This document shows, piece after piece, positions 27,673-35,665 of a DNA stretch of 64,000 nucleotides. How positions within the stretch are numbered: the first letter of the stretch is position 1; each line of letters starts with the position of its first letter. The notes beneath the pieces are model-generated. The model was not told the DNA's origin and ran no database searches. It saw only the letters and a program-made list of their open reading frames with translations. This DNA is from Rhodothermia bacterium. GTDB taxonomy: Bacteria; Bacteroidota; Rhodothermia; Rhodothermales; UBA2364. The stretch spans positions 1 to 64,000 of the forward strand of contig JAFLBZ010000010.1 of assembly GCA_017303715.1 (NCBI GenBank), given 5' to 3'. The position numbers and the translations under genes were made by a program.

Positions 27673-28632
27673 ATGCTTTTCGCACATCAACTCCTGCTTC
27701 CACTGACAGAGGCTACCGATCCGGACACTTTGGTGCGGGTAGCTACTTCGATAGGGAAAATGCTCAATGCGGCTTCGTTGCATTTGCTTTGCTTTCCAAA
27801 TGCATTAGGGCAGGGAGTTGCGAAAGCGTTCCCGAAGTCGCTACGTTCGTTAGATAACCATGAAACAAAGACCTTTCTTCCAGAACTTGATGCGATTGGT
27901 ACGACAAAGACCCAGCTTGAAGCGATGGGTATGCAGGTTAGTGTCGAGGTTGTACAACGCGAAACCCTCGCCGATGCAACACTTGCCGCACTTGAGCGGC
28001 TAAAGGCTGATCTGGTGCTTATGTTAACCCCAAATCATGCCCGCCCTTCGGTCGAGCAAGAAACTTTGAAGCGGCTTTTGCGCTTAGGTGGGGCAAATGT
28101 CCTCATGATTCCAAGAGAGCTGGGTGCTGAAGTAGTCTTCCCACCTCCAAAACGCATCCTCGTTCCGGTTGATTTTTCCGGTTATGCACGCGCCGCCCTA
28201 AAAGTAGCCAAAGAATTGGCACACTCACTCCCCAATGCCCAACTCTTGGTCTTAAATGTGGCAACCCAATCTGGCGGATATTTGGCTCCGCAAGTACATA
28301 ATTGGGAATACCAATTTGCCAAAGATAGAATTCGGATGTCTTTGTTCCAACGTTTAGAAGGCTTTATCCATGACACGCATGGCCCAGAAACCCAATATGA
28401 TTTGGACATTTTATTCGGCGAACCGATCCATCAAATCATCACAACGGCCAACAGAAATCAAATAGACCTTATTGTGATGTCTTCCCATGGGTTAAATGGC
28501 ATCGAGCGCCTGATGATAGGCAGTGTTACGGAAGGTATTATGCGTCAAACATCTGTACCGCTGTTGGTCGTCAAAGCAACGGAAGTCAAAAGCGGCTTTG
28601 CAAGCGCTTCATTGCTCGCAGCAAGTGCTTAA
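27673..28632 (+). CDS. Universal stress protein, two UspA domains (first of four)
   Basis: Two tandem UspA-like alpha/beta domains (about 1-150 and 155-305) in 319 residues. The second domain keeps the ATP-binding pattern G-x2-G-x9-G-S in SSHGLNGIERLMIGS followed by VPLLVVKA. The first domain has lost the glycines of that motif (MLTPNHARPS at the equivalent place), so it may serve only for dimerisation. Usp proteins are soluble stress-survival factors of diverse detail. It heads a run of four similar genes facing away from the PAS kinase/regulator pair. Confidence 0.9.
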   Translation: MLFAHQLLLPLTEATDPDTLVRVATSIGKMLNAASLHLLCFPNALGQGVAKAFPKSLRSLDNHETKTFLPELDAIGTTKTQLEAMGMQVSVEVVQRETLADATLAALERLKADLVLMLTPNHARPSVEQETLKRLLRLGGANVLMIPRELGAEVVFPPPKRILVPVDFSGYARAALKVAKELAHSLPNAQLLVLNVATQSGGYLAPQVHNWEYQFAKDRIRMSLFQRLEGFIHDTHGPETQYDLDILFGEPIHQIITTANRNQIDLIVMSSHGLNGIERLMIGSVTEGIMRQTSVPLLVVKATEVKSGFASASLLAASA

Positions 28633-28664
28633 ATTTACCTTATCACCCAACCCCTGAAATATCC

Positions 28665-29624
28665 ATGTTAAACATTAAAAGCATTCTAATCCCCATAGAT
28701 TTTTCCAAGTCTTCGCTTGCAGCAGCGGCGTATGCACTTGCTTTTGGGAAGGAATTGGAAGCTCAGGAGATCCACCTTATACATATTTTGGCACTCAAGC
28801 CAGCCAATGACCTTTATTCTGATGTTCTGGACGTCCAAAATCCCGAAGACCATCTAAGGCATTTACCGACCGACTGGCAACAACAGTGGGGACAACTCAA
28901 GCAAGATGTTCTGGATGCTGGATATCAGTACATTTCTGGGATGTTGCAATCCGATACCATTGCTTCACCCTTGGTTAAATATGCCGAAACCAATAAGATA
29001 GATTTGGTGGTTATGGCGACTCACGGACGGACAGGTCTTGCGCATCGCCTCTTGGGTAGTGTGGCTGATGGACTGATCGAATACGCGCCATGCCCTGTTC
29101 TTACCATTCGATCGGATCTTGCAGAAAAGCCTTACCAAGACATACGCAAAATCTTGGTTCCCTTAGATTTTTCAGAGCGCTCTGCCGAGGCCCTGCGTGT
29201 GGCACGAGAATACGCCCATCGAACAGATGCCGGACTAACCGCATTGAATGTGATCGCACGAACTGAAAAGTCCGATTTGCCAGCTTCTCCATGGGAAAAA
29301 GCCTATAACGAAAAAAATCCGGACGTGCGGCAAATTCATAAATTAGAATCCTTTATCCAATATGCGGGAGGGCCAAAAGTCCGCTACCAAACCGCATTGA
29401 TGTACGGCGATCCGGTAGAAGCCACCCAAATCTACTTAGAAGCATACCCGCAAGACCTGATCCTCATGTCCACCCGTGGACGATCTGGAGACGGGCTTTT
29501 CCACTACGGTAGTACTGCCGAAGAGTTGGTAAGACGCGCGCCTTGTCCAGTGTTAACCTTTAAGCAAGGAGACCGAATCCAATACAAACATTCACGGAAA
29601 AAGGTTGCCGCCACATCGTCTTAG
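28665..29624 (+). CDS. Universal stress protein, two UspA domains (second of four)
   Basis: 319 residues with the same two-domain layout as its neighbour. The first domain starts with KSILIPIDFSKSS and has an intact ATP motif in ATHGRTGLAHRLLGS followed by CPVLTI. The second has STRGRSGDGLFHYGST followed by CPVLTF, a motif with changed spacing. The C-terminus is Lys/Arg-rich. It starts 32 bases after the first Usp stop, and the run reads as one operon. A tandem-duplication origin is likely. Confidence 0.9.
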   Translation: MLNIKSILIPIDFSKSSLAAAAYALAFGKELEAQEIHLIHILALKPANDLYSDVLDVQNPEDHLRHLPTDWQQQWGQLKQDVLDAGYQYISGMLQSDTIASPLVKYAETNKIDLVVMATHGRTGLAHRLLGSVADGLIEYAPCPVLTIRSDLAEKPYQDIRKILVPLDFSERSAEALRVAREYAHRTDAGLTALNVIARTEKSDLPASPWEKAYNEKNPDVRQIHKLESFIQYAGGPKVRYQTALMYGDPVEATQIYLEAYPQDLILMSTRGRSGDGLFHYGSTAEELVRRAPCPVLTFKQGDRIQYKHSRKKVAATSS

Positions 29625-29667
29625 AGGCCAATACGCTTCTATTGTTCAACCCTAATCTACTAAGGCC

Positions 29668-30624
29668 ATGTTGACAAATGCCAAATTATTGCTCCCTGTT
29701 GAGCGAAATGAAACGACGCCAGACTTGGTTGCATTTGCCCACGCATTTGCCCGTGAGTATGGGATTAATCAGTTCCATTTGGTGCATGTACTTCCCATCA
29801 ACCCTCCCGTAAGTTCGTTAGAGCCAATGTTACAGGCAACCCTCCCGATGTCGGACGCCCATGTACTAAGTGAGGAGTCGGAGGTTTTTCTTAGCGGCAT
29901 TGCCAAAGACCTGCATAAGGCCGGCTTAGAGGTGCGTCAAACACTTCTTTTTGATTGGGATGTGGCCAATGCCTTGATTCGGTATGCGAATGAGATGGAA
30001 ATTGACTTGGTGGTAATGGGGACGCATGGGCGAAAAGGGATTAGTCGTTTGTTGATGGGTAGTGTAGCCGAGAAAGTAGTTCGTGAAGCAAATTGCCCTG
30101 TCTTGACGGTTCGTCCTAACACACATTTGGTGAAGCCCGAACTGATACGCCAAATTGTTGTCCCGACGGATCTATCGAAACATGCTAAAATGGCTTTCAA
30201 AGTAGCGCGTCATTTGGCCGCCCGTCATGGTGCAACCATCCATTTGTTACATGTCGTGAAAGAGGAAGGATTACCCCCCTTTTACGACCCCTATTGGTCT
30301 TATAACCAAGACAAAGAGGCCATGCACTCGAAAATTTATCCGTTGCTAAGCAAGTTTACAGAAGAAGTCCAAGTACCTTCCGCAAGAGTGGATTATGTAA
30401 TTCGGTTTGGAACGCCGGAGACGGAAATTGCGGACTTTGCCCATCAAATAAATGCAGACTTGATCGTGATCCCAACCCATGGGCTTACGGGGCTTGCTCA
30501 CTTCCTCATGGGAAGTGTAACCGAAAAAGTGCTTCGTTCCTCAAACATTCCGGTACTCACCATAAAATCCTTTGGGAAGCACCTAAGCCCCTTACTCACA
30601 ACAGAAAGCTATACGGAAGAATAA
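29668..30624 (+). CDS. Universal stress protein, two UspA domains (third of four)
   Basis: 318 residues. Both domains carry intact nucleotide motifs: GTHGRKGISRLLMGS followed by CPVLTV in the first, PTHGLTGLAHFLMGS followed by IPVLTI in the second. This makes it the only member of the run with two apparently complete ATP sites. It begins 43 bases after the second gene. Proteins of this type are cytoplasmic; a specific role is not visible. Confidence 0.9.
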   Translation: MLTNAKLLLPVERNETTPDLVAFAHAFAREYGINQFHLVHVLPINPPVSSLEPMLQATLPMSDAHVLSEESEVFLSGIAKDLHKAGLEVRQTLLFDWDVANALIRYANEMEIDLVVMGTHGRKGISRLLMGSVAEKVVREANCPVLTVRPNTHLVKPELIRQIVVPTDLSKHAKMAFKVARHLAARHGATIHLLHVVKEEGLPPFYDPYWSYNQDKEAMHSKIYPLLSKFTEEVQVPSARVDYVIRFGTPETEIADFAHQINADLIVIPTHGLTGLAHFLMGSVTEKVLRSSNIPVLTIKSFGKHLSPLLTTESYTEE

Positions 30625-30753
30625 CGCATACAATCGTACATCTGGCAATCTACTTCCGTTCTACACACGCTGACCAAGTTCTTAACTATAAATGACTTAG
30701 CAGAACTAAGTTCAAAATAATTCATCACCAGAGCTACTTCACCGGAGACCATT

Positions 30754-31716
30754 ATGTTATATGCCCGCAAATTATTGCTTCCCATTGAGTTCTCCGAAAT
30801 GTCTTATCTCGCTGCTTCTTGGAGTTTGGGCGTAGCCCGTAAATTGGGAATTCAAGAGGTTCACTTGGTTCACGTTGTCCAGATGAATCCCTCTCCGCGC
30901 ATCTCTGCAATTTCCGAGCGTGTGCAGTATGGCCAAGAGATCAGGGACAGTATCCCGCCTTCGTTCATGGAGCCATGGGAGAGTTTAACACAACAAGTGA
31001 TTCAGGAAGGATTTCGTTTAAGGATTGATGTTTTGGAAGCCAATGACATTACAAATGTTTTGGTTTCATATGCTGAATCGCATTTGATTGATCTCATTGC
31101 ACTCAACACTCACGCCAGAACAGGTTTCGCATTCGAGTCTCTGGGGAGTGTTGCCAAGAACCTGATTAGACACGCGCCTTGTCCGGTGTTAACCCTCCGC
31201 GTGGGCGACCAACAGCTATATAATACCCAATCTATCCAACAGATTTTGGTTCCGATAGACTTTTCCGATCGTTCGAAACAAGCCGTTCGGATTGCGCGAT
31301 CCCTTGCCGAGCGGATGGGGGGCGAGATTACCGCCTTTCATGTTGAACCTGTTGCCGGAGAAACAACCCAACATTCTCGGTGGGAACGCGAATACAACGC
31401 AAGCCACCCTAATGCGACACAAACACCCAAATTGGTGGACTTTCTGCACGCGGCTTCTGGCCCACGGGTAACCTGCCATACCGCGCCTCTTTTTGGGGAA
31501 TTGGTTCCAGCAACCCTGCAATATTTGGCAAGATACCAACATGATTTGATCGTTATTGGGACACATGAGTACCGTCAGGATGGTTTTGGCTTTACCCAGA
31601 GCATGACCGAGCGGCTCATTCAACTTGCGCCTTGCCCCGTATTGAGTTTCCGGCCTTCTTCGCGCTCATTAATTGAGTTCCACAATCCACAACAAGAACA
31701 TCTCATCCACGGTTAA
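30754..31716 (+). CDS. Universal stress protein, two UspA domains (fourth of four)
   Basis: 320 residues. The first domain has a slightly altered motif (NTHARTGFAFESLGS followed by CPVLTL). The second is degenerate (GTHEYRQDGFGFTQS), losing the central glycines. GGAG lies 9 bases before the ATG. The gap to the third gene is 129 bases, larger than elsewhere in the run, so it may have its own promoter, though none with a good -35 and -10 was found. A strong hairpin ends the run. Confidence 0.9.
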   Translation: MLYARKLLLPIEFSEMSYLAASWSLGVARKLGIQEVHLVHVVQMNPSPRISAISERVQYGQEIRDSIPPSFMEPWESLTQQVIQEGFRLRIDVLEANDITNVLVSYAESHLIDLIALNTHARTGFAFESLGSVAKNLIRHAPCPVLTLRVGDQQLYNTQSIQQILVPIDFSDRSKQAVRIARSLAERMGGEITAFHVEPVAGETTQHSRWEREYNASHPNATQTPKLVDFLHAASGPRVTCHTAPLFGELVPATLQYLARYQHDLIVIGTHEYRQDGFGFTQSMTERLIQLAPCPVLSFRPSSRSLIEFHNPQQEHLIHG

Positions 31717-31777: not shown

Positions 31778-31835
31778 CTTCGGTTTGGGTTCAAGGAAAG
31801 GCGAAGAGATCGCCTCTTCCGTAAGGCAGCGTTGG

Positions 31836-32405
31836 TTATTCTATTTTGCTAATCGCAATCGTCCATCCAATTTCCATTTTGAGAATTAATGGATGCTTGT
31901 CATTTTTAGCAATCCATAGTTTTTCTTTCCCATCTTCACTGACCATATAGAAGGCATCTATTGCCTGTTCCCCCATTTTTAATTGTGTAGCTTCGGTTAT
32001 TGGTTGGGAAGAGAATTTCTTTTTACCGGAGCCTGCATTAAATGCAAATGCTTTGCCTTTGCTCAACATTTCATAAGCATCCCGCGATATAAATCCTGCC
32101 GTCAGGTTTTCCAGTTTCTTAGATCCCGGATTATAAAAATTGTCCAATGCCATTGCGTGGTTCATGGCTGGTATTTTCAACGTCACATTGCCAACATATT
32201 GTGGGCCTAATGTCATACTCCACTTATAATCAACTGACTTATCAGCACCCATTATGTCCATAATAAATTGGTACTTGGTTCCACCAAAATTAACATCATA
32301 AGTAAATTTAGATCCTTTTTTCACGGTAAAAGGAGCCTCTTGTGCATCCGAGAAGTTGACCGAGAAAAAGAACAGGAGTAATAAGGGAATTGTTTTTTTC
32401 AACAT
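31836..32405 (-). CDS. Secreted protein of unknown function, third gene of the M14/deiodinase operon
   Basis: 189 residues with a clean signal peptide (hydrophobic 6-19, cleavage likely after SDA-Q). The mature part is beta-rich, with paired aromatic and charged positions suggesting a lipocalin-like or DUF3108-like beta barrel, but no family could be assigned. It starts 32 bases after the nitroreductase-family gene on the same strand, so it is probably co-expressed with it and with the M14 peptidase. Confidence 0.65.
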   Translation of the reverse strand: MLKKTIPLLLLFFFSVNFSDAQEAPFTVKKGSKFTYDVNFGGTKYQFIMDIMGADKSVDYKWSMTLGPQYVGNVTLKIPAMNHAMALDNFYNPGSKKLENLTAGFISRDAYEMLSKGKAFAFNAGSGKKKFSSQPITEATQLKMGEQAIDAFYMVSEDGKEKLWIAKNDKHPLILKMEIGWTIAISKIE

Positions 32406-32437: not shown

Positions 32438-33118
32438 CTAAAACCAAGAAGAAATCTTGGCAAGTGGTTTTCTGGATAAATTGGGTACACTTGCATGTAA
32501 AGACGGGAAGCCAACCGGAAAAAGCATAAATGGTTTTTCATTGATAGGCCGCTGAAGCAAGGCACTAAGAAAGCCCATTGGACTTGGTGTATGGGTTAAA
32601 GTAACTAAACCCATGTTATGAATTGCAGCAATAAACATGCCACATGCAATACCGCAACTTTCTTGGACATAATAATTTTTGCATTTACGCCCATCCTCAT
32701 CAAAACCATACGATTCTTCAAAACAAACCACAATCCAAGGTGCGGTCTCGATAAAGGGTTTTTCCCACGTTGTACCAATTGGTGCGAGGGCTTCTAACCA
32801 CGCTTGTGGCATCCGTTCTTCATAGGAGCGTTTTTCTTCTACCTCAACCGCCTCCCTAAGTTGACGTTTTAGTTCAGGATCTGAGATAGCAACAAACTGC
32901 CAAGGTTGCCGATGCGCACCACTTGGTGAAGTTCCCGCCGTCAGAATCGCCCGCTCGATCAGGTGCTTTGGGACGGGTTCCTCGGAGAAAAAACGAACAG
33001 AACGCCGTTTGTTCATTTGTTCGTAGAATGCATCCGCACGGTGCGTCATTTCCTCCATCCCCAACCGCTCATAAGTTAATAGGAGGTGGGGTGATTCCGC
33101 TACATTCGCCATCGTCAT
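32438..33118 (-). CDS. Nitroreductase-family flavoprotein, iodotyrosine deiodinase-like
   Basis: An FMN enzyme of the nitroreductase superfamily. The FMN-binding start is RRSVRFF (38-44), with TSPSGAHRQPW (63-73) next, as in iodotyrosine deiodinases (IYD), which reductively remove halide from halotyrosines. The residues that clamp the substrate amino and carboxyl groups in human IYD (Glu157, Tyr161, Lys182) have counterparts Glu95, Tyr99 and Lys120 with identical spacing. No N-terminal membrane anchor is present, so the protein is soluble. The gene lies 9 bases after the M14 peptidase gene. BluB-type and general nitroreductase roles are less likely because of the clamp. Confidence 0.88.
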   Translation of the reverse strand: MTMANVAESPHLLLTYERLGMEEMTHRADAFYEQMNKRRSVRFFSEEPVPKHLIERAILTAGTSPSGAHRQPWQFVAISDPELKRQLREAVEVEEKRSYEERMPQAWLEALAPIGTTWEKPFIETAPWIVVCFEESYGFDEDGRKCKNYYVQESCGIACGMFIAAIHNMGLVTLTHTPSPMGFLSALLQRPINEKPFMLFPVGFPSLHASVPNLSRKPLAKISSWF

Positions 33119-33127
33119 CTGCTTAAA

Positions 33128-35665
33128 TCAATAGGATCTACCAAAGAAAATGGCATTGAGCATCAGCCCATTTAAGGCATACCAGAAGCCCCTAAAGTTG
33201 GGATTATCGGCAAAGAGTACCACATTTCCCCTGCCCTGTTTACGGGAAAGGAGTGCCGCCGATCCCTTCACTTCTTGCAACATTTCGTCCGAGACGTAGC
33301 CACTGATATAGGGCTTTTCGGTATAACGTGCAACGGTGGCGCCGGGTACATTGGAAAGCGCATAAAGGGTTTCCGATGTTTTAAAGAACGCCATTTTTTC
33401 GGTTTGCCCAAATGCCAAAGGATGGGTAAGGTCTAATCTTGCCTCAAAAATAGCACCAGCAATATTTTGCGCCCCTCTTGTACGTGCAAGGTCTTCGAAA
33501 GGCACATTCCGTAAGTCAATCGCTTTGGTTTCTTTCACCTTTTCATCGGTCAAGTTATTCCGAATCGCCCATTGCATTGCGCCTTGAAGGGCAATCAAGG
33601 TGTTTCCTTCCGCCACCCAAGTTTTTAACTTTTCCGCCGTTCCATTGGGGTAAGAACCTTCCGAGAGGATTAGCACATTGTAGCGGTTTAAGTTGAGGCT
33701 CGGCAGGTCGGTTGCATTCAAGAGTGAGACCGGCATGGCCATACGTTCGGAAAGTAAGTGCCAGACCTCTCCGGCATTGTTGCTATTGACGCCACTTCCC
33801 TGAAACAACCCTACTTTAGGCATGGACAAGACCGGCATATTGTTGCTCCCCAAGTCGGGACCATCGGGAGTATAGCCGGTTTCGGTGGCATAAAAATCAA
33901 CGCCATGGCTTGCGGCAATGGCTTTTATGGTGGGCATAAGCCTTGCTTGATTTTCAGGCAGTACGGGAATAATAATGGTTCCTCGCTCAAAAACCTGTTG
34001 TTTACCATCCACTGCTAAAGTAAAGGGCAATTTACTCATCCGAACAAGGATCCCCTGTTTCTGGAGTTGATAAACTGCTTTAGGCGCATTATAATCTCCC
34101 CAAGGCATGAGATAAGCAATGGTTTGTGGGGGATTACCAAAGACTTGTCCGATTTTTGCAAGTGGCGCATTAAGTTGTTCGCCCAGTAAGCTCTGAATGC
34201 TCGATGTGGCTTCTTGATAAGGAACACCAAAAGCCAAGGGCATAGTCCAAGTAGAAATGTCATAAAACAAGGAATCACGGAAACTCGTTGTTTTCTCCAT
34301 GATCCCTTTCAAAAGTCTGATTTGGGGTTGATCCATAGGAATGACGTACCCACGCTTGATGTCTCCCGAAGTACCTTTTAACCGATGGATGATAACGTCA
34401 TGACGCATCAACATATTGACCAATGCGGCGGTACGGTTTGGATAACGGCTATCATCTAGAATATACCCCTTAACCGGATTGCTTCTTGCCAAGTCTTTTG
34501 CCTCGCGGTAAAAATTATGTTGGTGGCGCAAGAAATCTTCCCGCAGCGAGCTTAGCCCATTCATAGAAGACAAAGAGGTCACGAATTGGTTGAGAACGGT
34601 TTGGGCATAGGGTAACGTTCCACTACTCGTCTCTCTCAGAAGTGCCCGACTGGATCCCTGCTCAAACAGAATCCCAACTGCACCATTGATATCGGGAAAC
34701 GTGGAGCCTTTTCCATAATAAAAGTCATCATAGTTTTCCCGTGTGTAATACAACGAACCAATTTGATCCAAAAAGCGGGCATGGAAGGTGGCCAAGCGTT
34801 CGGTAAGGGTAACATTGCCTTGTGGTGTAAGTGGATTGGTACTGGCCGGAATACCGGGCTGGAAGAAAAACGTGGACTCACTCCCCATTTCGTGATGATC
34901 GGTTAATAATTGTGGCCGCCATTGGTAAAATGTTTCAATCCGTCCGACAGACTCTGGATGCACTGCCAAAACCCAATCTCGGTTGAGGTCAAACCAATAT
35001 TTGTTGGTACGACCTCCTGGCCAAGGCTCGTTGTGTTCGGCGTCATTCCCATCGTCATTGGGCACAGCGCCCCGCATTCGGTTCACATGATCCACAAACC
35101 GTGCACGTCCGTCTGGATTCATACACGGATCTAATAAAATGATCATTTTGCTTAATATCGCTTCGATCTCTGGTCCCTGTCCAGCTGCCAAATAATACAG
35201 AAAAAGCAAGGCAGCATCGGTTCCACTCGCCTCGTTTCCATGCACCGAATACCCGGCGTACCAAACTGCGGGCATGTTTTTCAAGGCTCCTTCGTCAATT
35301 CGTTCAGGCTCCTTCACCAACTGAAGGTTTTTCTGCCGGATACTTGCTAAGTTTGTATGATTTACTGGCGTGGTAATAGTGGCCACTACAAGTGGACGTC
35401 CTTCATAACTTTTCCCATATGTCCGGAGTGTAATACGGTTACTTGTAGCCGCAACCGCCTCAAAATACCGGACAACTTCTTCTGGACGTGTATGCTTGCT
35501 TCCCACCTGATATCCCAAAACGGCTTCAGGTGTTGGGATTTTAGGGTCAAAGTGCGTTATTCCTTTGGGGGTATAGGGCAACACGAACGGAATAGATTGC
35601 GCGTTCAGCGTCGAAAGCAGACAAGCGAGGTAACTTATCGAAAAAATAATGCGGCTTAATTTCAT
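33128..35665 (-). CDS. Secreted M14-family zinc carboxypeptidase
   Basis: 845 residues with a signal peptide (hydrophobic 5-20, cleavage after LNA-Q). The zinc site starts at His142 and Glu145 in HGNEAS; the third ligand is His257 or His258 in LTDHHEMGS, and FDLNRDW (225-231) holds the Asn-Arg pair that binds the substrate carboxylate. M14 enzymes remove C-terminal residues from peptides. About 500 further residues after the catalytic part are unassigned, with one glutamine-amidotransferase-like beta/alpha region near 620-800. It is the first gene of a tight three-gene operon with the deiodinase-like flavoprotein. Confidence 0.9.
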   Translation of the reverse strand: MKLSRIIFSISYLACLLSTLNAQSIPFVLPYTPKGITHFDPKIPTPEAVLGYQVGSKHTRPEEVVRYFEAVAATSNRITLRTYGKSYEGRPLVVATITTPVNHTNLASIRQKNLQLVKEPERIDEGALKNMPAVWYAGYSVHGNEASGTDAALLFLYYLAAGQGPEIEAILSKMIILLDPCMNPDGRARFVDHVNRMRGAVPNDDGNDAEHNEPWPGGRTNKYWFDLNRDWVLAVHPESVGRIETFYQWRPQLLTDHHEMGSESTFFFQPGIPASTNPLTPQGNVTLTERLATFHARFLDQIGSLYYTRENYDDFYYGKGSTFPDINGAVGILFEQGSSRALLRETSSGTLPYAQTVLNQFVTSLSSMNGLSSLREDFLRHQHNFYREAKDLARSNPVKGYILDDSRYPNRTAALVNMLMRHDVIIHRLKGTSGDIKRGYVIPMDQPQIRLLKGIMEKTTSFRDSLFYDISTWTMPLAFGVPYQEATSSIQSLLGEQLNAPLAKIGQVFGNPPQTIAYLMPWGDYNAPKAVYQLQKQGILVRMSKLPFTLAVDGKQQVFERGTIIIPVLPENQARLMPTIKAIAASHGVDFYATETGYTPDGPDLGSNNMPVLSMPKVGLFQGSGVNSNNAGEVWHLLSERMAMPVSLLNATDLPSLNLNRYNVLILSEGSYPNGTAEKLKTWVAEGNTLIALQGAMQWAIRNNLTDEKVKETKAIDLRNVPFEDLARTRGAQNIAGAIFEARLDLTHPLAFGQTEKMAFFKTSETLYALSNVPGATVARYTEKPYISGYVSDEMLQEVKGSAALLSRKQGRGNVVLFADNPNFRGFWYALNGLMLNAIFFGRSY

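Follow-up and report, generated by a model that had tools for sequence, protein, structure and literature searches.

It is very probable that the flavoprotein encoded next to an M14 metallocarboxypeptidase in a Rhodothermia bacterium is a bacterial orthologue of iodotyrosine deiodinase (IYD), the product of a widespread stand-alone gene, and that its M14 neighbour is a separate enzyme with no evidence of a shared pathway. The human counterpart removes iodine from tyrosine in the thyroid. Across the order Rhodothermales, the IYD gene is frequent but lacks a constant neighbour, a pattern that speaks against inferring its role from any single adjacent gene, and its pairing with the M14 gene should not count as evidence of a halotyrosine pathway. 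Bacterial IYDs as such were already known, and a range extending from mammals to bacteria has been published (PMC13078365, citing Phatarphekar et al. 2014).

The window, that is, the whole 64,000-nucleotide stretch analysed (positions 1 to 64,000 of contig JAFLBZ010000010.1), carries three closely spaced genes on the reverse strand. The M14 gene (33128–35665, 845 aa; ORF, Pfam, and fold comparison) is followed after 9 bases by the gene of an IYD-type FMN nitroreductase-family protein (32438–33118, 226 aa; ORF, Pfam, and alignments), and after another 32 bases by a gene encoding a secreted 189-aa protein with no function assigned (31836–32405; ORF, with the signal peptide recognized by eye). 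This order and spacing, described in an earlier sequence-only reading, agreed with the ORF coordinates, and the third ORF falls outside the interval 32438–35665 given there. Since the flavoprotein orthologues of the same genus align from Met3 of the window's protein, translation may start at 33112, leaving a gap of 15 bases to the M14 gene. In the window's genus, the flavoprotein gene and the small secreted gene, both downstream of the M14 gene, probably share one transcript with it. A possible, weak terminator is located directly 3' of the third gene (31803–31819, reverse strand), and a promoter and terminator scan of the region returned the same counts as in shuffled sequence.

The third gene had no match in Pfam. 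Its signal peptide, judged by eye, ends in SDA ahead of QE, its structure model (pLDDT 41) was too poor for use, and it was found in 3 of 60 relatives, every one a member of the window's genus. Convergent to these genes, four universal stress protein genes, each encoding about 320 aa, lie in a row on the forward strand (27673–31716), most of them with two Usp matches; this run is not at the same place in the other two genomes of the genus.

Comparison with solved structures placed the flavoprotein closest to 5ko7 (2e-73), followed by the mammalian IYD entries (about 1e-60), with a whole-protein match of 9e-61 to human IYD (4ttb). The best nitroreductase not named IYD reached 4.7e-12, and Pfam assigned the Nitroreductase family (2.9e-19). 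Entries 5ko7, 5ko8, and 5krd, deposited as 'Nitroreductase', represent the IYD of Haliscomenobacter hydrossis. Glu95, Tyr99, and Lys120 of the flavoprotein align with Glu157, Tyr161, and Lys182 of human IYD, at exactly the positions that had been proposed from the letters of the window, and the matches to human IYD and 5ko7 put this alignment well beyond chance. All 43 sequences of one alignment (5ko7, human IYD, and 41 from the order) have the triad unchanged, and so do all 83 of a wider set, composed of 80 cross-phylum loci and three further sequences. According to their record titles, the 80 loci span Bacteroidota, Acidobacteriota, Actinobacteria, Chloroflexi, Planctomycetota, Proteobacteria, and Archaea. 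In a control alignment, the complete triad was absent from all eight other nitroreductase-family proteins of the same order. The flavin-site residues of the flavoprotein are R38, R39, R42, S66, and T177, of which R38/R39/R42 and T177 align with human R100/R101/R104 and T239; beside the Pro-Ser flavin-site motif, residue 64 is Ser, compared with Ala in nearly all relatives. Sequence comparison shows the flavoprotein to be orthologous to the solved bacterial IYD. The IYD-like identity suggested earlier was thereby supported, both by orthology to the solved IYDs and by a triad that is invariant in the orthologues and incomplete in the tested paralogues. Close IYD relatives with 54% identity and an intact triad also occur in two records titled Euryarchaeota/Poseidoniales (L111 and L127), and one IYD copy with three in-frame stops (G195:C12:246645–247265) is likely a pseudogene.

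Because the flavoprotein is orthologous to 5ko7, its likely activity is the reductive dehalogenation of free halotyrosines. By analogy with the characterised relatives, a cytoplasmic FMN enzyme would reductively strip the halogen from free halotyrosine to give tyrosine and halide, with Glu95, Tyr99, and Lys120 forming a lid that would grip the amino-acid moiety of the substrate, and with Thr177 as a probable flavin contact. Bromotyrosine is also debrominated by mammalian IYD (PMC4708624). No signal peptide was recognized in the flavoprotein by eye. The IYD fold and triad may instead have been kept for another main substrate, a zwitterionic phenol or nitro compound such as nitrotyrosine or a quinone, on which the protein would work as a general flavin reductase. 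Promiscuity is known in the nitroreductase family and no genome context links the IYD gene to halogen chemistry, but the flavoprotein has its triad, Thr177, and most of its active-site residues in common with the proteins solved as IYD, which makes such a substrate unlikely.

The M14 protein matched Peptidase_M14 in Pfam (4.7e-19) and had no PDB match by sequence, and the structure predicted for it (mean pLDDT 84) resembles that of carboxypeptidase A. The zinc ligands H142/E145/H258, the pair N228-R229, and the catalytic E335, whose roles are assigned from established M14 motifs, were invariant across 23 orthologues. The extra C-terminal half carries a sub-threshold DUF4350 match. Loops around the pocket were modelled with low confidence (residues 265–276 and 307–321), so that a tyrosine preference of the protein cannot be judged from the model. 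The signal peptide, again judged by eye, ends in LNA ahead of QS, so that the mature protein would begin with Gln, a feature typical of Bacteroidetes (PMC5837995). The protein would act as a separate secreted carboxypeptidase on peptides outside the cytoplasm. With the peptidase exported and the flavoprotein predicted to be cytoplasmic, any link between them would require import of the released residues, and nothing pointing to such import was seen here.

Across 60 relatives and 394 phylum genomes, adjacency of the M14 and IYD genes was confined to the window's genus, where it was found in all three genomes (G000–G002). Each gene is widespread: IYD occurs in 44 and the M14 orthologue in 42 of the 60 relatives, and in the phylum set the counts are 114 and 125. 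Outside the genus, the M14 orthologue lies at least about 15 kb from IYD or is absent, the nearest pair being about 15 kb apart as read from the listed coordinates (G111 and G202), and in 80 named loci from many phyla, no relative of the M14 gene was found in the 6 kb around IYD. A flavoprotein gene conserved without the pair had been named in the sequence-only reading as an outcome that would refute it, and this is the pattern observed: the flavoprotein is conserved, whereas the pair is adjacent in a single genus, so that the coupling fails by the standard set there. The syntenic block of this genus comprises the third gene, IYD, M14, a desaturase-like gene, PPK2, a hydrolase, and DsbD, and the conserved gene order stops just past the third gene. 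This block is retained as a unit, and the linkage is therefore not specific to the M14–IYD pair. The short gaps persist in three species whose proteins are 70–77% identical, and co-transcription may thus bring some benefit. The adjacency to a secreted peptidase is a quirk of one genus and not a sign of a shared pathway.

No positive association between the two genes was detected within the order (odds ratio 0.25, Fisher p = 0.11), where 28 of 60 genomes contain both, 16 IYD only, 14 M14 only, and 2 neither. Families f14 and f15 have IYD and lack the M14 orthologue, f15 retaining distant M14 paralogues, and the reverse holds for family f3 and most of f13. Among the 394 phylum genomes, 72 possess both genes, compared with about 36 expected under independence. 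Much of this excess is supplied by one large family of the class, nearly all members of which have both genes, so that shared ancestry could be a sufficient cause of the phylum-wide co-occurrence. Within the order, IYD was probably inherited vertically.

Other families of the order have IYD adjoining or close to asnS together with a SIMPL gene, or placed between genes for an M24 peptidase and a glycosyltransferase. Several genomes of family f15 (L035, L063, L067, L069, L073) have an IYD gene that begins within a few bases of where asnS ends, and the order asnS–SIMPL–IYD is retained in other families. Family f4 (L046, L047, L048, L050, L052) has IYD directly downstream of the M24 peptidase gene, often overlapping it, and upstream of the glycosyltransferase gene, an arrangement kept over several genera. 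The window's genome carries asnS on a separate contig without IYD beside it, which suggests that IYD was relocated in this lineage. No partner gene of IYD was conserved across phyla, and its neighbours were clade-limited only. A link to tyrosine breakdown through HPPD (TIGR01263) was rejected: the window's genome has HPPD, but families f14 and f15 lack it and still have IYD. One genome (G007, L058:45–5578) has IYD within 2.5 kb of genes for 4-hydroxyphenylpyruvate dioxygenase and a probable homogentisate dioxygenase, a neighbourhood that was not repeated in other loci.

Peptidases made up at least 4 of 50 distinct operon-like IYD neighbours (families M14, M24, M49, and S13) compared with at least 2 of 49 background genes; the neighbours were drawn from many lineages, the background genes from the same loci, and one of the neighbours, the M49 gene of L124, was included by hand. 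This share is not distinguishable from background and does not favour a link to peptidases. Co-transcription of a peptidase with IYD in the window's genus, and perhaps independently elsewhere, for the reuse of halotyrosines from oxidised protein is a very improbable reading, for which the candidate examples of independent pairing are M24 in one family of the order and M49 and S13 in single Bacteroidota lineages. Also very improbable is the scavenging pathway first proposed for the window, in which the secreted M14 enzyme frees C-terminal halotyrosines that are imported and dehalogenated by the flavoprotein: the short gap retained in three species, the complete set of zinc and catalytic residues, and the intact triad agree with it, but against it stand a pairing restricted to one genus, two genes that occur independently in whole families, different predicted compartments, and the lack of a clear peptidase enrichment.

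Among the closest known systems, the carboxypeptidase A-type enzymes (5om9 and 2ctb) resemble the M14 protein in the modelled catalytic domain fold and in the predicted zinc and catalytic residues; the M14 protein differs from them in its length of 845 aa, its large additional C-terminal half, and an identity of 16–17%. The flavoprotein shares with mammalian IYD/DEHAL1 (4ttb and 3gb5) the conserved Glu157/Tyr161/Lys182 and Thr239, whereas the mammalian motif TTTPLNCG corresponds to THTPSPMG in the window. Mammalian IYD also has an N-terminal membrane anchor. The IYD of Haliscomenobacter hydrossis (5ko7) is matched over nearly its full length with the same triad; the two proteins are about 54% identical and differ at Ser64, where most have Ala, and both carry the flavin-site motif THTPSPM and lack a membrane anchor.
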